DNA from: Phycisphaerales bacterium
GTDB lineage: Bacteria > Planctomycetota > Phycisphaerae > Tepidisphaerales > Tepidisphaeraceae
Length of the DNA stretch: 32,525 bases
Reading direction: 5' to 3'
Assembly (NCBI GenBank): GCA_020847545.1
Contig: JADLBV010000087.1
Span: forward strand, 1-32,525
The notes beneath the pieces were generated by a model, which saw only the letters and a list, made by a program, of their open reading frames with translations, did not search any database and had not been told where the DNA came from. Of this stretch, positions 6,930 to 19,977 are shown in pieces. Within the stretch, counting starts at the first letter, position 1. Every line of letters starts with the position of its first letter. The translations under genes were made by a program, and so were the position numbers.

Positions 6930-7244
6930 CTACCTTGATCTTCGCAGCAGGTAGCCGAACGCCAGGCCGATGCCCGCCGCGATTAGCAGCGATTTGATCG
7001 GACGTTCTTGGACATAATTTTCAAGATGTTGCTCCATGTCCCGGGCACGCTGGCGGCCTTCATCGTAATAATGGCCGGCCCGGTCGCGAAGATGCTCATA
7101 TTTTTCACGGGCGGCATCGCGGACCTGGCTTCCCATGTCGCGAATCTGTTCGCCGATCTGGGAGGCCGATTCTCGAAGATGGTGGCCGGTATGCCCTTCG
7201 CCTTTGCCTTGCTCGGCCGTGGCGGTTTCATTCATCCGACTCAT
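6930..7244 (-). CDS. DUF883/ElaB/YqjD-family protein
   Basis: A 104-residue protein with a long amphipathic helical region (about 20-78: ESASQIGEQIRDMGSQVRDA and onward, rich in Arg, Asp and Glu) and a C-terminal membrane anchor ERPIKSLLIAAGIGLAFGYL followed by basic LRRSR. This is the standard layout of the ElaB/YgaM/YqjD family, which in E. coli are inner-membrane, ribosome-associated proteins of stationary phase. The ATG at 7244 has a clear ribosome site, GAAAGGAG, 6-7 bases upstream. First gene of the three-gene set; its promoter must lie in the 245-bp divergent region 7245-7489, where AT-rich stretches such as TTCATTATTTTATGAATTAA (near 7390) are visible but no confident -35/-10 pair. 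Confidence 0.8.
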   Translation of the reverse strand: MSRMNETATAEQGKGEGHTGHHLRESASQIGEQIRDMGSQVRDAAREKYEHLRDRAGHYYDEGRQRARDMEQHLENYVQERPIKSLLIAAGIGLAFGYLLRRSR

Positions 7245-7489
7245 AAAATACTCCTTTCAAAAACGCATCGTTTGACGAACGATGACAACAAAACCGACTT
7301 TAATCTGGGTAAAAGTAGGTGTCAGCGCAGAAAATCCATCCATTTTTGTCCTGTTTCGAGCCGATGAATGACTTGTCAGTTGGAGATTTGTTCATTATTT
7401 TATGAATTAAGGCATCGCACATTTCAAAGGATGCGACCGCCAAAGGACCAAAACGGATCGAATGGCCATTTCAACGACAGGAGACAGCC

Positions 7490-8023
7490 GTGGGCATACG
7501 TGAAAAATTGAATCAAAATCAGGGAGTCACCACTGGCGTGACGGTGGGCGTCATTGTGCTGGCCTTGATTTTCATCATCTGGCAACTGGTCGGCGGCAAC
7601 TCGCGCGGGTCAATCCCCACGCAGGCGTTTTTCACTGTGGATAACGGGGCGACGTGGTTTGCCGATGACATCAACAAGCTGCCGCCGTTTGACCATGATG
7701 GCAAGCAGGCGGTTCGGGCGTTGATCTTCAAGTGCAAGGGTGGCAAGGAATTTGTGGGCCACCTGGAGCGATACACCCCCGAAGCCAAGGCGCAGATCGA
7801 GAAGATGCGTCAGGCCGTACCCAGTAAGGATGGCAAAGGCCCGCCGATGCCCCCGCCGGGACCGATGATGGGAGACCTCGCCTTCAGCGGCATGGAGGTC
7901 AAGGCGGCCGGCGCGCCCGATACCGCTTGGGTTAAGATGGCCGATTTCCAAAAGGCACAGGAAATCACCAAGATCAAATGCCCCGACGGCGATTCGAGCC
8001 AGATCGAACCGGTCGTTCCGTAA
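7490..8023 (+). CDS. Conserved single-TM protein of planctomycete type, function unknown
   Basis: A 177-residue protein that starts at GTG 7490 behind a good ribosome site (CAGGAGACAGCC-GTG). An N-terminal membrane helix, about 16-36 (VTVGVIVLALIFIIWQLV), is followed by a polar domain with FFTVDNGATWFADDINKLPP (about 47-66), FDHDGKQAVRALIFKC, GKEFVGHLERYTPEA and a Pro/Met-rich loop (about 121-127). Cys residues occur at about 80 and 162. I remember similar short proteins in Planctomycetota genomes but cannot name a family. The hydrophobic N-terminus without a cleavage site suggests a membrane-anchored domain facing the periplasm. It stands alone: divergent from the DUF883 operon and followed by a strong terminator. 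Confidence 0.78.
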   Translation: MGIREKLNQNQGVTTGVTVGVIVLALIFIIWQLVGGNSRGSIPTQAFFTVDNGATWFADDINKLPPFDHDGKQAVRALIFKCKGGKEFVGHLERYTPEAKAQIEKMRQAVPSKDGKGPPMPPPGPMMGDLAFSGMEVKAAGAPDTAWVKMADFQKAQEITKIKCPDGDSSQIEPVVP

Positions 8024-8053
8024 TCGGGACATGCAATTTCTGTAGGGTAATCC

Positions 8054-8096
8054 AAACCCGGAACCAGGTGGCGCAATCCGCCGGTTCCGGGTTTTT
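8054..8096 (+). terminator. Strong rho-independent terminator
   Basis: A perfect 12-bp stem (8054-8065 pairs with 8083-8094) with a 17-base loop runs into TTTTT at 8092-8096, 31 bp after the stop of the 7490 gene. The A-run at the other side is short, so it should work mainly on the plus strand while protecting against the convergent HlyD-type transcript. Confidence 0.85.
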
Positions 8097-8141
8097 GCTT
8101 GGATATCCCTGTACATGACTACTCATAAATCGGCAGGCAAA

Positions 8142-9749
8142 TTACAGGGAGAGGGAGGAGATTTTCGCGGTTTCGGTGTTGCTTGGGGAGGTTTTGCGGC
8201 GGGCGCGGAGAGTGTCGGTGGGGGAGGTTGTTGGTCCCAGTTTGATGCCGGCGCTTTCGAGTAGTTGGCGGCCCTGGCCCATTTGCAGGAGAAGCACCTG
8301 GTCGCCGGCCGAGAGGCCGCTGACGATTTGGACGTGGGTTTGATTGCTGGTTCCCACATCCACTTTTCGCGGCCGGGGGTGTCCATCGTGGCGCACGAAG
8401 ACGTAGTTGTCCTTGCCCACTGAATAGATGCACGCCAGTGGGACGGCCAAGACATCGCTGAGGCTGTCCACCAGGATTTCCACCTGCGCGCCCAGGCCGG
8501 GCTTGAGGTTGGCCGGGGTGTAATCCAGCGCCAGATCGACCGGATATTCCTTCAAGTCCGGGTTCCACCAGCGCTGGCTGTTGTCGGCCAGGACGCTGAT
8601 TTTAGTCAGCTTGGCCGACACCGGGTCGGGGATGCCGACGATCTTCACGATGGCCGGCTGGCCGAGGTGCAGCTTGGAGACCTGCGCCTCGGGCACGCGA
8701 ACAACCGCCTTCATTGAAGCGGTATCGGGCAGGCGCAACAGCAATTGACGTTCGCGAACGGATGTGCCTTCCTGAATCGGCGTCTGCTGGCTGCGGTCGA
8801 AGCTGGAGGAATAGACCACCATCCCATCGGCCGGGGCCTTGATGGTGCAGTTGGCCACCTGTTCCTGCATGTGTTCAACGCGCCGGCGGCGCAATGTCAC
8901 CGATTCGTCGCGCGCCTGTTCATCGGCAATTTTTTGCGACAGATTGCTGGCGTTTTCACGTTTGACCCGCGCCAGTTTCTGTTCGGCCTGCGCCAGGGCG
9001 TTTTTCTTGCTGGTCAGGTCTTTTTCATGGGTGTACTGCGCCAAGACCGTCACGGCGGTGGATTTTTTTTCCAGATCGTTTTGCGCGGTCAGCAAATCCA
9101 GTTCGCTTTTTTTGACATCGGCGGCCGTCACAAACCCCTTGGCGAACAAACTTCGCGTCTGGTTGAGGTCTTCCTGACGGTTTTGCAGCGTCGTCTCGGC
9201 CATTTCCTTGTTGCGCTGGGCCTCGGAGAGCAGTTGCGGATAAATCCCTTCGGTGTATTCCTGCAAATCGAGCTGGGCGAGCGTCAGTTCCACATGCGCC
9301 GCCTCCAGATTGGCGGCGTTGGTCAATTCCTGGATGCCGCGCTGCTCCTTGGAGGCCGTCAAATCCGCCTCGGCGCGCTGCAAATCCAGTGTTGAATCCT
9401 CCAATTTCTGCTTGATCTGCGAGGAATCGAGAATCAGGATCACATCCCCCTTTTTCACCGTGCTCCCTTCCTTGACCACGAAGGTGATGGCCGTCTGCCC
9501 CTCCACCTGGCAGGAGACGTCGATGTTGTTGATCGACTGCAACTCCCCATCCTTGGTGACGCGCACATCCAGCGTCATCGGCTCAACAGAATAATATGTG
9601 CCGGTGTCGATGGTGCCCGATGACCGCAGATAACTTCGCGCCACCCACGCCAGCCCCACGAGCAGCAACAACGCAACGGGCAACCCCACCCACAGCCGGA
9701 TGGACCAGCTTCGACCCTTGGCAACATTTGGAATCGGCACAACACTCAT
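8142..9749 (-). CDS. HlyD/MacA-type periplasmic adaptor of an efflux or secretion system
   Basis: A 535-residue membrane-fusion protein. It has an N-terminal membrane helix (about 19-40, LWVGLPVALLLLVGLAWVA), a first lipoyl half about 70-108 (SCQVEGQTAITFVVKEGSTV, GDVILILDSS), a long coiled-coil hairpin (about 110-300), the second lipoyl half VANCTIKAPADGMVVYSSS, then beta-barrel and membrane-proximal domains ending VLAVPLACIYSVGKDNYVFV. Adaptors of this class link an inner-membrane ABC or RND pump to a TolC-like channel. The TolC-like gene ends 12 bp upstream, so the two are almost certainly co-transcribed. No pump gene follows: the next gene is convergent. The ABC exporter at 26188-28338 is the only transporter in the window. 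Confidence 0.88.
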   Translation of the reverse strand: MSVVPIPNVAKGRSWSIRLWVGLPVALLLLVGLAWVARSYLRSSGTIDTGTYYSVEPMTLDVRVTKDGELQSINNIDVSCQVEGQTAITFVVKEGSTVKKGDVILILDSSQIKQKLEDSTLDLQRAEADLTASKEQRGIQELTNAANLEAAHVELTLAQLDLQEYTEGIYPQLLSEAQRNKEMAETTLQNRQEDLNQTRSLFAKGFVTAADVKKSELDLLTAQNDLEKKSTAVTVLAQYTHEKDLTSKKNALAQAEQKLARVKRENASNLSQKIADEQARDESVTLRRRRVEHMQEQVANCTIKAPADGMVVYSSSFDRSQQTPIQEGTSVRERQLLLRLPDTASMKAVVRVPEAQVSKLHLGQPAIVKIVGIPDPVSAKLTKISVLADNSQRWWNPDLKEYPVDLALDYTPANLKPGLGAQVEILVDSLSDVLAVPLACIYSVGKDNYVFVRHDGHPRPRKVDVGTSNQTHVQIVSGLSAGDQVLLLQMGQGRQLLESAGIKLGPTTSPTDTLRARRKTSPSNTETAKISSLSL

Positions 9750-11643: not shown

Positions 11644-12954
11644 TTATTCCCGTTCGGCGAACAATTTTGCCCAAACACCCCTCCTGTGTGCTGGCGCGGG
11701 ATGATTGGGTTGCAGTGTTGCCAGATGATCGTAAGCCCGTCGGCCGAGTTCGATCTGCCGGCCTGCCGATTCCAGCAGGGGCTGGCGAAGGTTCGGCGCG
11801 GCATTCCATTGTGATTCAATCGCCCGATGCAAACGCCCGGCCAGATCGGGTTGGTCGGCCGGTACGATCAGACATCCACCGGGAAATTGCCCCGCGATGC
11901 CGCGCATTTTGGCCGTGTAATATTCAGAAGCGACGATCCCCACCACCGGCACACCCTGCGAGAGCGCAAAAATGGCCGCGTGATAACTGCCGGTCATCAC
12001 AACCCGGCATTGGCCGACCCGTTCCATCACCTCCTGCGGCGTGTCCGGAGTCGGCCAATTGTCCGCGTCCATGAGTTGAGCAATGGATGACACATCCGAA
12101 TCCTCGGCCTGTAAAGCAATCGGGAGCGGTATCAACGGGGCATGAAGTTGTGTTGATCGCTCGGCCAGAACCGTCTTAAAAACGTGCAATTGATCGGCCA
12201 GTGCGCCGGCATACCCGGCCACGCGCAGATTCACCCCGATGCCATTGGACATGCGGTCATTTCTGACGCGATGGACCGCTTCGATCGCATCATCCCCCGT
12301 GGTGTCGAAATAGGGTGATTTCACGCCCATTTCATCCAGCAAAGGTTGGCTGGAGGCCGATTCGCGCAGGGTCAGAAGATCAAGCCGGTTCATCACGGCC
12401 GCGCCATATTCGCGCAGGGTCGAGTTGCGCAGCGGGCCAACGCCCTGGCCGACCATGGCGGTTAATTTGTTCATCGACTGCGCCATCGCCAGCGTCCCCA
12501 GCACCATGCGGGCCTGATGTTCAAACGGATCGGTGAGATACCCGCCGCCGGTGCCGACGACCAAATCCGCGTCGCGCACGGCCGAGAGGTATGCCCGCAT
12601 CGGCGCATCATCCTCGCCGCGGGTGCCCAGTAACAGACCCAGGATGGTTTGGATAAATGAACTACCCCGTCGGCGGGCGGTTTCGAGACGATGATAGAGT
12701 CGATCATGCACCATCACCGGAAGGGGGCAACCTTCAAGGATGGGTGTCAGCGCCCATTGGCGCACACCTTCGCACGACACTGGCCGAGCCTGTGGAACCA
12801 GCCGGGCAAGTCGTTGGGGATCGGCCGTCAGACAATGGATGATCGCGTTGGGAAATCGTTTGGCCAGCCGGGCGGCGGCAACCTGCAACATGGCGACATC
12901 ACCCATGTTGCGGAGCGAATAGGAGGAATTGTCCAGAAGAATTCGACGAATCAT
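11644..12954 (-). CDS. Polysaccharide pyruvyl transferase family protein
   Basis: A 436-residue protein of the PS_pyruv_trans family, which moves pyruvate from phosphoenolpyruvate to sugars of cell-wall or exopolysaccharides (WcaK, CsaB type). Seen: N-terminal ILLDNSSYSLRNMGDVAML, GTGGGYLTD, GQGVGPLRN and the conserved SYHAAIFALSQGVPVVGI with its catalytic-region His. The ATG at 12952-12954 overlaps the stop of the upstream PP-loop gene as ATGA, which fixes the start and indicates translational coupling; the 60 extra in-frame codons upstream lie inside that gene. About 76 bp separate it from the TolC-like gene downstream. Sugar acceptor unknown. Confidence 0.88.
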   Translation of the reverse strand: MIRRILLDNSSYSLRNMGDVAMLQVAAARLAKRFPNAIIHCLTADPQRLARLVPQARPVSCEGVRQWALTPILEGCPLPVMVHDRLYHRLETARRRGSSFIQTILGLLLGTRGEDDAPMRAYLSAVRDADLVVGTGGGYLTDPFEHQARMVLGTLAMAQSMNKLTAMVGQGVGPLRNSTLREYGAAVMNRLDLLTLRESASSQPLLDEMGVKSPYFDTTGDDAIEAVHRVRNDRMSNGIGVNLRVAGYAGALADQLHVFKTVLAERSTQLHAPLIPLPIALQAEDSDVSSIAQLMDADNWPTPDTPQEVMERVGQCRVVMTGSYHAAIFALSQGVPVVGIVASEYYTAKMRGIAGQFPGGCLIVPADQPDLAGRLHRAIESQWNAAPNLRQPLLESAGRQIELGRRAYDHLATLQPNHPAPAHRRGVWAKLFAERE

Positions 12955-14207
12955 GAATTTTGAGTGGGCGGGGGCGTGGGTTGGTTGGAACTCTGGCGAT
13001 TTTTTTGGCCCAGACCCAGAATTTTTTTGATCCGAGTGCGCAAGCCAACTTGTTCGCGAAATTTGCGATACCACATCGGCCGGGCGAGTTCCTTTAATCG
13101 GTCGTCCAGCGAGGCTTTCAAGGCGACGGTCCACGATCCATCGGTGCCGTGCATTTTGGCGACGCTGAGGATTTCGCGGATGGAAGTCGCCGCGTTGGGG
13201 ACCATATCCCGCCGATGCCAGTCGCGGATGAACTGGTCATCGACATCTTGGGCAAAACATTCGGGCAAACCCGCCCCCACCGCGCGGAACAGCAGAATCG
13301 AACGCAGACATTTATAACAGACGCCGCAGTTGCGGCTGAGGTCAGCGCCCTCGTAGCAGATGCGCAGGCCGCGCCGACCGGCGGGCCATTGGGCGATGGT
13401 TTTGATTTTCAGATACCGGTCAAATGCGGCGGCATCGTGTTCGATGGTGAAACCGAGACCCCCCAATCGCCAGTCCATCAATGGGCTGGAGCCCCAGGGA
13501 TTGGAAATTTTGCTGTATGGGTTGCCGCTGGCGATCTGCCCGCCGCGAAATCCCTTCTGAAACAGCAGCAGCACCGCCGCCAGCGCGCTGCCGTGCATGT
13601 GTTCCCAGTCTTCTTCCGGCGTGATGATCCGCCAGTTGGTCGCCACACGGGCCAGCGGCACACCCAGGTCGTCGGTAAGTGCCTGCGCCCTTGCCGAAGC
13701 GCGGGCAAACGTCTCTTTCTGTGACAGCGGAATGTCAAATCCGTGAACCATGACGGCCGCGCCAATCGGCCGGGCCAGCCGGCCGCACAATTTTTTGCAA
13801 TGCCGGTAGAGCGTGAAAGCGGCATCCGCCCCGCCGGAGAATGCCGAAACATATTTGTCGGGCGCGGGCGATGCTGATTCAGCCTCCAAATCGGCGGTGA
13901 TCGGAACCTGCGTGTACAGTTCGGGGCGGTAATGATGCCATGCATCCTGAAATTCGGTGAGATTTCGCAAAAGCGATGGCGACACCCGGCCATGAACGTG
14001 GATCGGCGTTTTTTTCTTCATCGCCTTGAACAGCACACCCACCAGAAACGAATCCATCGCATCGGTGATGGCGGGTACGAAGGCGTTGGCGACCGCATAT
14101 TGAAGCGTCAACGGCGCATCGCCGGCGCAGTCGATCCGGGCACTATAGAGGGTGGATTCCGGGCCGGCGGCCGGGTCATTGGGGCATATATATAAGGTAC
14201 GATCCAT
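12951..14207 (-). CDS. PP-loop ATPase-like protein with Cys cluster (QueC/ExsB-like), coupled to pyruvyl transferase
   Basis: A 418-residue protein. SAFSGGADAAFTLYRH (from about 121) is a variant PP-loop (SGGxDS/A) that binds ATP and activates a substrate as adenylate. Further conserved-looking blocks are VMVHGFDIPLS (about 153-162), IASGNPYSKISNPWGSSPLM (225-244) and IEHDA (256-260). A cysteine set C284, C294, C297, C300 (NCGVCYKC) resembles the zinc site of QueC-type 7-cyano-7-deazaguanine synthases. The order of blocks does not match QueC well, so I would not call it queC. The position, overlapping the pyruvyl transferase by 4 nt, points to a step in glycan or nucleotide-sugar modification such as amidation or thiolation. 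The C-terminus is basic and Gln/Pro rich. Confidence 0.65.
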   Translation of the reverse strand: MDRTLYICPNDPAAGPESTLYSARIDCAGDAPLTLQYAVANAFVPAITDAMDSFLVGVLFKAMKKKTPIHVHGRVSPSLLRNLTEFQDAWHHYRPELYTQVPITADLEAESASPAPDKYVSAFSGGADAAFTLYRHCKKLCGRLARPIGAAVMVHGFDIPLSQKETFARASARAQALTDDLGVPLARVATNWRIITPEEDWEHMHGSALAAVLLLFQKGFRGGQIASGNPYSKISNPWGSSPLMDWRLGGLGFTIEHDAAAFDRYLKIKTIAQWPAGRRGLRICYEGADLSRNCGVCYKCLRSILLFRAVGAGLPECFAQDVDDQFIRDWHRRDMVPNAATSIREILSVAKMHGTDGSWTVALKASLDDRLKELARPMWYRKFREQVGLRTRIKKILGLGQKNRQSSNQPTPPPTQNS

Positions 14208-15444: not shown

Positions 15445-18400
15445 TCAAACCGCCATGGCGCGTTCGTTGGGATGATTTGGCGCGGCCGGTTCGGAGGGTT
15501 TGGTCGATTCATCCATCGCGCCGGCCATGGGAATGGCTGCTTGTCGAGTGCCTCTGGCGGCCGCGGCGATGAACACCGCAAAGAGCAGGATTACGATTCC
15601 CGCAGCGCCGGCGGCGTAGGTTGGTCGAAGGTCCGCGCCCATTCCCGCGATCGTCACCTTGGCCGGCTCCGGATAGGGGGTCTCTTTGGACTGTGCAACC
15701 AGCGCATCAAGCCGATCCCGGCGGGCTTTGAGTTCCTGTGCCGCCTGATCGCGCTGTGCCAAACTCGCCAGTCGACGGTCGATGTCTTCGCGGGCCGACT
15801 GCAATTGTTTGGATTTCTGGAAATACGCCTCGCGGGCCGAGGATTCCGTCTGTTGCGCCTCGGCCAGTTGTGTGCGTTTTTGTTCAACCAACTGAAGACG
15901 GGCCAGTTCCTCCTGTTCGCCGGCCTGTTTGTCTTGGGCGGCTGTCAACTCGCGGGTGCGCTCGTCGATGCGGTTTTGCAAGGTCGCGATGTCCTCGGCG
16001 ATCAGCCGGGCCGGTTCGCTCTCCTGTCCTTTTTGCACGACGTCTGCATATTGCCGGCGGGCTTCGTTTAATTCCTCAAGACGTTTTTCCAACTCGGCCG
16101 CCAGTGCCTGTTGTTCGGCCGGCAGACGCTGCGCCGGCGGCTGGGTCGCCAGAACGCTGCGTTGCACTTTTTGCAACATCTCCTCGGTGCGCTGTCGGCT
16201 GTCGGCCAGTTGCTTCTGACTGGCATCGATAATCCGCTGAAGCTGGTTGATCGCCTCGGCATAAACGCTGTCATCCCCCAGCAGGTCGCGCCGACGACGA
16301 ATCTGATCCTTGAGTCGATCCTCATCCGCCTTGAGCTTCTGTGCCTGTGCCGCCGTCTCCTCGCCGCCGCTCAAGGCGGCATTGTATTGGCGGGTGGTCA
16401 ATGCCAATTGCTCATTGAGGTCCTTCAATTCCTTGTCGTTTTCCCAGATTTTGCTGCGGCGCGCCTCCATTTTTTCATCCAGCAGACGTTTGAGGCCGGC
16501 GATGCGGTCGGCCTGTTCCTTCTGGCTCTGGATGAACTCCGCCGTCAGTTCCTGCACGGCATTTTGCAACTCAGCCACCGCCGCGACGTAATTTTGAAAC
16601 TCCGGATTGTCGTGCAACTGCCGCTGCACATCCGCGATCTGCTGTTGCAGACGCTGCGCCGCGCCATCGAGCTTTTGCCGCGCCTCATCCGCCTGCGAAT
16701 GGGTGCTGACGCGCACGCGCTCCAGCCGCATTTTCAGATCGTCCAGCGAGGCGCGCATGTTGCGCAACTCCTGGTCATCGGCCACGGCCGCCGCCACCGC
16801 GGAGGTTGACCCCGGCTGCGTGGTTGGCGATTGGCGGGCGTGATCCAATTCCCCCTTAAGCTGCACGGAACGCTCGGCCGCTTCATGCCACGCCTTTTCG
16901 GCGGCGGCCACTTCGCGTTCATAGGTCGCCAAATCCTCAACGGTTCGCATCCCGTGCAACCGGCCTTCAAGCTCGGTGATCTCGGCCGATCGCTGCTCGA
17001 CGATCCGCTGCGATTGCTCAATCGCGCCGTTCAATTCGCGCAACTGCTGTTTGACTTTTTCATACGCCAGCCGTTGATCGGCGATTTTCTGGTCGGCATA
17101 GAGCGCCGACATCAGCGCCGACATCCTGTCCTCATCCAACCTGGCCGATGCGCTTTGCCGACCGATGACCCATGTCGATGAATCCTGCCCCGTCCATTTG
17201 GCCTCGCTGAGCATCCGCGTGTAGTCCACCGCATCGTCCAGAAACCCCGCCTCGGCGTCGGCCCCCTGTTTGACGCGGTAAATCGCCTTGGCGCTGCTTC
17301 GCATTTCCGATTCTCCCAGCATCGCCTGCAACTGCTGGTCAATCTGCCGGCGTGACTGCTCGGTGGCCAGGTTTTGGTAAGTGATCGCCGCCTCCACACG
17401 CGACTCGCGCGGCATCAGATACCACGCGCCACCCCCCGCGGCCGCCGCGCACAGCAGCATCAAAAACACCAACACCGGAACGCTCCATCGTTTGCGCTTG
17501 CCCGATGGAATATTGGGCGCATCCCCGCTTCCGTGACGTTCACCCGCATTTCCAGGAGGTACGGTCGCCGCCGCCGCCACCGGAACCGATCCAAATGGAT
17601 CGCGCGGCGGCTGTGTCTGTGCCGCATGGGTATGATCTTCACCCGTATCGTGCGATTGATCGGTCGACGGCGCGGCCGCGGACTCATGCCCTTCGCCACC
17701 GAAAATCGGATCATCGGATGCCGGCGGCTGCATCTGCGAAAAGACATCCACCTCACGCACCGGCGGCATCGCCAGTCCATCAAAACCCGTTGTCGCCTGA
17801 CCGCGCGTCGATGATGCGCCGCCGGCGAATGGCGGAATCTCCACATCTTCAAAAACGGGCGTTTCTTCGGCCGGCACCTGCACCCGCTGACGGGCGAATG
17901 CCGATGGTTTGACCTTCGGTCGAGGCGGCATCACCATCCCCGGCCGGCGCATCGGCGGATGCTCCATCGGCGGTTCGGAAGTGGGCGATTCGGCCGCAGG
18001 CGCAAATTCAGTCGGTGACGATTCGGGGGGCTCCTGCCCGTGCAATTTCGGCAACTGCAACGGCATCCCACCCAGATATCCAATCGACTCGGCCGCATTT
18101 TCAGCGGGAGGTGATATCCCCACCATCTTCACCGGCTCGACTCGTTGGGGCTTTGCGGGCGTAGGGGCCGGCGGCTTGGGTGGTTCCTTGCGGGCGGCGG
18201 GTTTGGCCGGCGGGATGATGGGTTCGGTCGTCTCCAGTTTCAGCGGTTCATTTTCCACCGCCGCCGCTGGTTTCAATGGCTCGATCGTCGGCTCTTCGGC
18301 GCTCAAATCCAACGGCGGCACTTCATCTTCCGACACCGGCTTGAGCAAATCCTCAACCGATATCTCCTGGTCGAGCGATGATTCAACCACCGGATCATTG

Positions 18401-19977
18401 CCGCTGCCGCTGAATCGCTCGATGGCCGTGTCCAACTGGCTGTCGGAAATCTCCTCGGCTGTCGGTGTGATGCCTGGCGTTCCTTCAATCGCTTTTTCCA
18501 ACCCCTGGGCCGATTCGGGTGTCGGTTCGGTTCGATCAACGACCGATTCCCGCTCATCCTTCCTTCGCGGTCGCTTTCGATTTTTGCGGCTGGGGGTCAC
18601 TGAAACCGGCGTGGGCGCGGCATCCTCCGTCTCCAACGACTCCATCGCGATCAGCGGTTTTTCCGGCTCCTCAATCGGCCCAACCGGCGTCTCATCAACT
18701 GAAAAATCGAGCGGCGCCACGGCCTCATCAATCGCCGGCGGCTCGTTCAATTCATCCGCGAGGTCCACACCGGCCAATGGATCGGGCGATGGCTCGGGCA
18801 AATCAAGCTTGGTCGGTGTCGAACCAAAATCCACCCCATCCAAGTCCGACACCGGAATGGGCTTTTCTTCAATTTCTTCGGCGGGTGTTTCAACGGAGGG
18901 TTCTTGTGCCCGTTGGATTGCCTCGGCCGCGGCTTTTTGCAAATCCGTATTCGTTGCCGATGAGCTTAGTTTTTCTTCACGCAAATCCCGCGACACCAAA
19001 ACCTGCGGCGGTTCGGATTCCGGTTCATCCGGTTCGGGCAATTCCTCCACCACCTGATCGGACAATTTCGGCAGATCACGATCCGCATCGACATCCGCCA
19101 GCGGAATGGTGGCCGTGTCGTTTCCGCTGCCCACATCCGGATCGTGATCCAGATCAATCGCCGTATCGCCCAATACATCCAACGGCTCTGTCGCCGGCAA
19201 TGGCGAACTTTCGTCGGTGGGAGGTTGATCCTCGGTTGTCTGTTCAGTTTCCGAAACCGCCTGATCGGATGGTTCCCCGACCAGCGGCGCGGTTCCGACC
19301 AGGTGTTCCAGTTCATCGACTTCGGCCGGCTGTTCCTCGGCCGGCATGTAGAGCATTTCAGTCTCGCCGATCCGAATCTGATCGGAAAACTCCAACGCCT
19401 GTTGATGAATCTTGCGGCCGTTGACGAATGTGCCTGTTCGCGATCCCAGATCGCGGATGATCCGCCGGCCGCCCAGCTCGTAAATCACCGCGTGGGCGGT
19501 CGAGGCGCTATCTTCAATTAATGATATATCGCACGTCGGCCGACGACCGATCAAAATCACCCGCTGTTCGAGCGGGATCGGCATCTCGCCCCCATTGACG
19601 TGCATCGCCGCGGATGGAGCGCCGGCAGTGGCTTTTTGCCGCACCTTGGCTTTGGCCGAGACGCGAAACCGAAAACTCCCGATGTCGATCACGTCGCCGG
19701 GCTTGAGATCCGCCTCCGTGACCGGCTCACCATTGACGAAGGTATGTGTGCGGCTTTGCAGGTCGCGCAAATAGAGATGCCCATCATCGTTGATGATCAG
19801 GGCGTGTGCCTTGCTGACCTGGCGCGACAACAGATGCAGGTGGGCGTTATGGCGTGCCCCGATCAGCGTGGCCGGACGGTTGAGCGGCACAGGCGGCTTG
19901 CCCAGATGATGACCCTGTGGGATCAGCGTTGGACCGTTGCCGGCAGGCCTGCCATTCAAAGGTGATTCATCAGCCAT
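15445..19977 (-). CDS. Giant membrane protein: two FHA domains, Pro/acidic linker, TM, long coiled coil, TM
   Basis: About 1510 residues. FHA1 (about 37-110) has GAR, SRQVSKAH and TFVNG; FHA2 (about 139-211) is more canonical with GRRPTCDISL, SASTAHA and RTGTFVNG. FHA domains bind phosphothreonine peptides. Residues about 212-825 form a Pro/Glu/Ser/Asp-rich linker of low complexity. A membrane helix follows at about 831-851 (VPVLVFLMLLCAAAAGGGAW), then an almost unbroken coiled coil of about 590 residues, then a second helix at about 1453-1473 (GIVILLFAVFIAAAA) and a short tail. TM, coiled coil, TM is the layout of Wzz/GumC chain-length regulators. ATG 19977 (MADESPLNG) is preferred over the GTG 57 bp upstream. 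Could be a cell-envelope scaffold controlled by Ser/Thr phosphorylation; function unknown. Confidence 0.82.
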   Translation of the reverse strand: MADESPLNGRPAGNGPTLIPQGHHLGKPPVPLNRPATLIGARHNAHLHLLSRQVSKAHALIINDDGHLYLRDLQSRTHTFVNGEPVTEADLKPGDVIDIGSFRFRVSAKAKVRQKATAGAPSAAMHVNGGEMPIPLEQRVILIGRRPTCDISLIEDSASTAHAVIYELGGRRIIRDLGSRTGTFVNGRKIHQQALEFSDQIRIGETEMLYMPAEEQPAEVDELEHLVGTAPLVGEPSDQAVSETEQTTEDQPPTDESSPLPATEPLDVLGDTAIDLDHDPDVGSGNDTATIPLADVDADRDLPKLSDQVVEELPEPDEPESEPPQVLVSRDLREEKLSSSATNTDLQKAAAEAIQRAQEPSVETPAEEIEEKPIPVSDLDGVDFGSTPTKLDLPEPSPDPLAGVDLADELNEPPAIDEAVAPLDFSVDETPVGPIEEPEKPLIAMESLETEDAAPTPVSVTPSRKNRKRPRRKDERESVVDRTEPTPESAQGLEKAIEGTPGITPTAEEISDSQLDTAIERFSGSGNDPVVESSLDQEISVEDLLKPVSEDEVPPLDLSAEEPTIEPLKPAAAVENEPLKLETTEPIIPPAKPAARKEPPKPPAPTPAKPQRVEPVKMVGISPPAENAAESIGYLGGMPLQLPKLHGQEPPESSPTEFAPAAESPTSEPPMEHPPMRRPGMVMPPRPKVKPSAFARQRVQVPAEETPVFEDVEIPPFAGGASSTRGQATTGFDGLAMPPVREVDVFSQMQPPASDDPIFGGEGHESAAAPSTDQSHDTGEDHTHAAQTQPPRDPFGSVPVAAAATVPPGNAGERHGSGDAPNIPSGKRKRWSVPVLVFLMLLCAAAAGGGAWYLMPRESRVEAAITYQNLATEQSRRQIDQQLQAMLGESEMRSSAKAIYRVKQGADAEAGFLDDAVDYTRMLSEAKWTGQDSSTWVIGRQSASARLDEDRMSALMSALYADQKIADQRLAYEKVKQQLRELNGAIEQSQRIVEQRSAEITELEGRLHGMRTVEDLATYEREVAAAEKAWHEAAERSVQLKGELDHARQSPTTQPGSTSAVAAAVADDQELRNMRASLDDLKMRLERVRVSTHSQADEARQKLDGAAQRLQQQIADVQRQLHDNPEFQNYVAAVAELQNAVQELTAEFIQSQKEQADRIAGLKRLLDEKMEARRSKIWENDKELKDLNEQLALTTRQYNAALSGGEETAAQAQKLKADEDRLKDQIRRRRDLLGDDSVYAEAINQLQRIIDASQKQLADSRQRTEEMLQKVQRSVLATQPPAQRLPAEQQALAAELEKRLEELNEARRQYADVVQKGQESEPARLIAEDIATLQNRIDERTRELTAAQDKQAGEQEELARLQLVEQKRTQLAEAQQTESSAREAYFQKSKQLQSAREDIDRRLASLAQRDQAAQELKARRDRLDALVAQSKETPYPEPAKVTIAGMGADLRPTYAAGAAGIVILLFAVFIAAAARGTRQAAIPMAGAMDESTKPSEPAAPNHPNERAMAV

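Follow-up and report, generated by a model that had tools for sequence, protein, structure and literature searches.

What could a planctomycete do with a protein of 1510 residues that carries a pair of FHA domains at its N-terminus and a long coil between two membrane helices at its C-terminus? The window analyzed here, a stretch of 32,525 nucleotides (positions 1 to 32,525 of contig JADLBV010000087.1 from a Phycisphaerales bacterium), holds the gene on its minus strand, as are all its parts given below: it starts with an ATG at 19977 and its stop codon ends at 15445. A sequence-only reading of the same DNA had placed a giant FHA-FHA-linker-TM-coil-TM protein at 15445–19977. These coordinates proved exact, and the protein itself is confirmed by the ORF call, two FHA stretches in Pfam, hydropathy, dN/dS and recurrence in the family. 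From the N-terminus it consists of two FHA domains, an acidic, proline-rich linker of ∼617 residues and two membrane helices, TM1 and TM2, which enclose ∼599 mostly helical residues and are followed by a short tail. As reference for dN/dS we used the copy of Phycisphaerales MAG SJ572 (L008), the nearest named relative, which has the same start and is 81% identical overall. The pairwise value was 0.16 for the whole protein. By segment it was lowest at the end with TM2 (0.05) and in the coil (0.09), lay at 0.12 in the FHA part, 0.15 in TM1 and the N-terminal region of the membrane half and 0.23 in the linker, and reached 0.34 in the tail, the least conserved segment. Purifying selection acts on every segment; since dN/dS lies between 0.05 and 0.34 in all of them and other family members share the architecture, the gene is not a chance ORF. 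Promoter and tRNA scans yielded nothing useful. A viral origin was considered and found unsupported, with three pattern matches and no relative among them.

The Pfam FHA model (PF00498) matches the protein with 102.6 bits (cut-off 20.7, E = 1.6e-29) in two stretches, residues 38–100 for domain 1 (19678..19866) and about residues 137–212 for domain 2 (19342..19569; alignment A5). The pocket arginine, serine and asparagine are all present in both domains. Across 16 aligned FHA tandems there is no variation at S38, H41, N65, S142 and H145 and next to none at R128 and N169, positions which we take to be phosphothreonine-pocket residues; the pocket arginine of the first domain is missing in two tandems (L035 and L041). 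With serine, histidine and asparagine of the presumed pocket invariant in both or nearly both domains, the phosphothreonine-reading N-terminus proposed earlier holds as a prediction. Two FHA domains open all 14 long-form homologues with complete N-termini. FHA likeness extends to mycobacterial FhaB/FipA, GarA and OdhI, with scores under the curated cut-offs; these proteins are small, without linker or coil. Orthology to GltG was rejected, as the NCBIfam GltG model reached 77.7 bits against a cut-off of 650 and matched residues 137–267, the FHA part only. FHA-FHA-linker proteins of about 416–544 aa without the membrane half were also observed (L149 and L157 in genome G019, L144 in genome G004), and G019 carries several of them in addition to its giant. 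Locus L160 (G000:C32) encodes, at 7224–8168 on its minus strand, another FHA protein, which may include a zinc-binding part; a canonical Wzz/BY-kinase gene lies ∼4 kb away, together with a WecG-type transferase and a flippase.

The linker (residues 216–832; 17482..19332) had been put at roughly 600 residues and counts 617; it is acidic and proline-rich, with 15.6% proline and 124 acidic against 48 basic residues. Among the 14 long forms with complete N-termini its length ranges between about 608 and 2071 aa, thus varying more than threefold while the coil length is near-fixed. Three motifs occur in the linkers far above shuffled expectation, although they were picked from the very sequences counted (L026 was excluded from the counts): TEPTPESA at residues 483–490 (18508..18531; 9 of 19 linkers, 0.08 expected), YLGGMPLQLPKL (FIGGxP-like) at residues 634–645 (18043..18078; 10 of 19, 0.02 expected) and AMPPVREVDVFS (EVDVFS-like) at residues 736–747 (17737..17772; 10 of 19, 0.04 expected), the last located mostly 60–120 aa N-terminal of TM1. 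The recurring TEPTPESA-like motif contains threonine and is a candidate phosphothreonine site.

Hydropathy places TM1 at residues 833–854 (17416..17481) and TM2 at residues 1454–1474 (15556..15618), with 599 residues between them and a tail of 36 residues after (1475–1510; 15445..15555 with the stop codon). KRKR stands before TM1 and RGTR after TM2, so the positive-inside rule predicts cytoplasmic tails and a periplasmic coil. A coil enclosed by two membrane helices and facing away from the cytoplasm, as claimed before, agrees with this prediction, and an N-in/C-in topology with a periplasmic domain between two TM helices, as in Wzz and other PCPs, is found as well, in both cases from hydropathy and flanking charges only. 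The proposed coiled coil of ∼590 residues stood in part: the distance between the helices fits and heptad periodicity is modest (p < 0.05 in 5 of 15 coil windows versus 1 of 20 linker windows), but ∼120 residues at its start and ∼30 at its end are Wzz-like flanks. The segment is therefore divided into a Wzz-like N-terminal periplasmic region (about residues 855–975; 17053..17415), a long helical or coiled-coil region (about residues 976–1420; 15718..17052), ∼300 aa of which are missing from short-coil relatives, and a C-terminal periplasmic region (residues 1421–1453; 15619..15717) bearing a D-x-R before TM2 (D625 and R627 in alignment A4, nearly invariant). An AlphaFold2 model built on two alignment rows shows the middle as almost all helix; the whole model is poor (pLDDT 58.7, pTM 0.29), with pLDDT below 50 where the alpha/beta base of a PCP would lie. 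Sequence matches in the PDB were dismissed as coiled coils (best E 0.0027), and a relation to SMC/Rad50 as coiled-coil bias only.

Beyond the FHA part, the curated Pfam and NCBIfam models give no match for the membrane half. At E up to 1, PF02706 (Wzz) matches none of the 18 long-coil family members and nothing in the window protein; PF13807 (GNVR) matches neither the window protein nor the 18 members, and matches both canonical proteins of the genome weakly or well. Proteins matching PF02706 occur in all 11 family genomes tested, three of which have no long-coil giant (G005, G008 and G022). The sequence-only reading had pointed to a resemblance with Wzz/GumC chain-length regulators, and profile–profile comparison makes this likeness a probable homology. 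The Wzz profile was built from 22 of 24 Wzz loci, a fragment (L044) and a match in mid-ORF (L053) being dropped and three of those used (L062, L065 and L066) falling below the Pfam cut-off; the HlyD control profile comprised 20 of the HlyD loci listed. Because the hhalign comparisons are one-to-one, the controls and not the E-values carry weight. The N-terminal region scored 94.9% against Wzz with TM1, 69.7% without TM1 and 50–51% without TM1 and coil, compared with ≤1.0% for reversed Wzz, ≤4.9% for MreC and 0.4% for HlyD. For the C-terminal part Wzz scored 89.7%, and the reversed and HlyD controls stayed at 7.4% and 8.0%. The last helix and the N-terminal ∼150 residues of the membrane half match Wzz/GumC in register; the stretch before TM2 plus TM2, taken alone, shows no Wzz match (2.7% versus 4.1% reversed). 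Full-length comparison gave 97.3% and 97.8% in two runs, a score inflated by coiled-coil bias, since reversed sequences reach 21–48%. An HlyD-type adaptor (0.4–8.0% likeness to HlyD_D23 proteins) and an MreC-like protein (≤4.9% against the N region) were rejected on these comparisons.

In 392 genomes of the phylum the N-region profile found two proteins outside its own genome, a Wzz/BY-kinase protein (E 6e-4) and a RecG-like one, both names being assigned by reading the sequences; the RecG-like match arose by chance. When the family profile was run against the 1178 ORFs of the loci, the best non-family matches were mostly Wzz proteins from loci fetched by Pfam Wzz (L066, L057, L049, L060, L065 and L046), with the first HlyD-type ORF (E 0.024) ranking behind them and the RecG-like ORF standing among them. 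Matches in L088/L097, L089, L090, L101 and L102 are not independent, as it was the giant's profile that retrieved these loci. Searching the other way round, the Wzz model picks up the giants only weakly, at best with E 6e-4, and their N-part at 0.11, mixed with other ORFs. On the strength of these sequence comparisons we consider the membrane half very likely to be a distant homologue of Wzz.

The giants are longer than their presumed relatives, as had been claimed: the distance from TM1 to TM2 is 620–661 aa in 18 long forms (mean 629.5, sd 10.6) and, among 22 Wzz-type proteins encoded in the same genomes, 309–425 aa, which leaves about 240 extra residues of coil. A search with the membrane half matched 18 of 150 relatives, all in one family of 26 genomes; four of these long-coil copies are N-terminally truncated and 14 are complete. 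The profile of the 18 had matches in 25 out of 298 class genomes, 22 from the family of 26 and three from outside it, and it gave no membrane-half match in the family genomes G005, G014, G021 and G024, while in G021 an FHA tandem and linker run off the contig end. Deviating members were found in four genomes. G022 and G012 encode FHA-FHA-linker proteins whose TM helices lie 322 and 380 aa apart, and G008 and G004 encode proteins of 468–477 aa without FHA and with TM distances of 276 and 281. The absence of profile positions 238–544 from the G022 protein locates the site of length gain or loss. The two halves can be separate genes, as in G004, where another contig encodes an FHA-FHA-linker protein that lacks TM helices. 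Outside the family, the matches in G071 and G287 are Wzz/BY-kinase proteins. A protein of 2162 aa in G077, from another family of the class (L097, G077:C8; 9614–16102, minus strand), has a very long N-terminal coil followed by a TM-coil-TM end similar to that of the giant; it carries no FHA domain and, up to E 0.1, no Pfam match bar one at chance level.

In our reading, to which we assign a probability of roughly 0.4, the giant is a Wzz/PCP-like protein of the inner membrane that has diverged and lengthened; its cytoplasmic regulator would be the tandem FHA with its very long disordered linker, not a BY-kinase, and Ser/Thr kinases would set its clustering. Whether the gene is tied to glycan export, as the earlier reading suggested, was judged from its surroundings. 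In the window purH lies upstream, and downstream follow genes for a GFO/IDH/MocA oxidoreductase, an uncharacterized protein, a polysaccharide pyruvyl transferase, an outer-membrane-efflux-type and an HlyD-type protein. A protein of 418 aa without Pfam match (12951–14207, minus strand) adjoins the polysaccharide pyruvyl transferase. No neighbor is general across the 22 loci compared, and no polysaccharide neighborhood is conserved: purH stands beside the giant in three loci, GFO/IDH in three, and a protein of 475–492 aa, by Pfam of the CNNM/CorC type in L027, beside or near it in six (L027, L030, L032, L035, L039 and L040). An operon-based function was dropped, as the neighborhoods differ across loci. 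Two canonical Wzz/BY-kinase genes lie elsewhere in the giant's own genome, with a flippase-type gene and glycosyltransferases of the WecG type or group 1 as neighbors, and in these genomes generally the separate canonical Wzz/BY-kinase proteins sit inside polysaccharide clusters. With neighbors unconserved and canonical Wzz located elsewhere, glycan export is possible by homology and not indicated by position; for the specific link nothing was found in support.

The same observations bear on a strict form of the co-polymerase idea, in which the giant would act as a signal-controlled polysaccharide co-polymerase: unlinked genes would make a single housekeeping surface glycan, and the giant would determine its chain length or its export. 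The probable Wzz homology of the membrane half speaks for it, as do the polysaccharide pyruvyl transferase, HlyD-type, OEP-type and sugar-type genes on the same strand of the window and, in sequences read by eye, glycosyltransferases and an ABC polysaccharide exporter downstream in the close relative. However, such neighbors are not kept in the family (purH and CNNM/CorC recur in the few loci named above), and canonical Wzz, flippase and glycosyltransferases are present elsewhere in the same genome. We hold this explanation to be unlikely.

A role as envelope scaffold is likewise judged improbable. Here the PCP-derived coil would serve as an inner-membrane-anchored spacer or organizer, acting in envelope width, division or shape, with the FHA domains recruiting phosphorylated partners and without any part in polymer length. 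A near-fixed coil in 18 genomes next to a linker of free length would suit such a spacer, and so would a single-copy gene that is near-universal in one family and belongs to no operon, as well as the FHA-FHA-linker proteins without membrane half; however, coils of 276–380 aa in four family members indicate that the length is not indispensable. That the giant is an unrelated two-TM coiled-coil protein, its Wzz likeness being convergent through TM and coil bias, would fit the lack of a curated family match and the weak reverse search, but both ends of the membrane half match in register where reversed, MreC and HlyD controls fail, and we regard it as very unlikely.

A Wzz/PCP-like ring controlled by Ser/Thr kinases could work as follows. 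Hanks-type kinases, of which the genome has six matches, none adjoining the giant gene, might phosphorylate linker threonines, with the conserved TEPT(P)ESA motif as candidate, or partner proteins. FHA domains of the same or of neighboring chains would bind these phosphothreonines, and binding would gather or release the membrane halves, which like other PCPs may form a ring of helical hairpins into the periplasm. The state of the ring could then gate surface-polymer assembly or tie the inner membrane to the outer envelope. What the sequences show is the domain order, its conservation under purifying selection, the predicted topology and a probable relation to Wzz; the ring, phosphothreonine binding, the clustering and the controlled process are inferred. 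Such a mechanism is favored by the conserved serine, histidine and asparagine of the FHA pockets, the linker motifs above shuffles, the Hanks-type kinase matches and the Wzz profile likeness. Against it stand the missing Pfam Wzz/GNVR match, the weak reverse search and the unmatched piece before TM2, and furthermore the arginine gaps in the first FHA domain of L035 and L041, the unconserved neighbors, coil bias and the poor AlphaFold2 model.

Wzc-type regulators are controlled by tyrosine self-phosphorylation. The giant resembles Wzz/GumC/Wzc (PF02706, PF13807) in its two TM helices around a periplasmic domain of ∼120 residues followed by helices and in the matching ends, and differs from them by its coil length, the absence of a Pfam match and its location outside a polysaccharide cluster. 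In contrast to PCP-2a proteins of the Wzc type it has no C-terminal BY-kinase behind TM2 and carries the FHA tandem and long linker instead. Wzc itself is a PCP, and phosphorylation governs both the assembly and the dissolution of its octamer (PMC8285477). For Rv1747, an FHA-bearing ABC exporter of Mycobacterium tuberculosis, phosphorylation-dependent condensates and nanoclusters of its FHA domains and disordered linker are reported (PMC9312465); like the giant, it combines two FHA domains and a disordered linker with a membrane part, and it has a link to envelope precursors. However, in Rv1747 the linker lies between the FHA domains and the membrane part is an ABC transporter, and no homology to the giant was seen outside FHA. 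GltG of the Myxococcus gliding machine combines a cytosolic FHA domain, a TM helix and a periplasmic part within an envelope-spanning machine (PMC3169522), an arrangement shared with the giant; unlike the giant, it has one FHA, one TM and a TonB-like end. The cytosolic half looks like Rv1747 and the periplasmic half like Wzc; a PCP-like ring with its assembly or clustering set by Ser/Thr kinases is the simplest joint reading. In the literature searched for PCP or Wzz combined with FHA no such protein was found; the passages of PMC12419801 that mention Wzz and FHA are unrelated.

In its most far-reaching form, which we put forward tentatively and with more doubt than confidence, the proposal is that a PCP lineage replaced the tyrosine self-kinase by an FHA/phosphothreonine switch on a linker of 600–2000 residues, which would condense Wzz-like rings with a doubled, length-fixed coil, so that the global kinase state controls envelope polymer assembly or spacing throughout a whole planctomycete family. 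Coils of ∼280, 320–380 and 620–660 residues occur together in this family, which would make it a natural test of the role of coil length in PCPs. If a Wzz-like protein is indeed read out by FHA domains, surface-polymer or envelope assembly would come under Ser/Thr kinases and, via the linker, under clustering. This suggests a new wiring of Ser/Thr kinase signals to the cell envelope.
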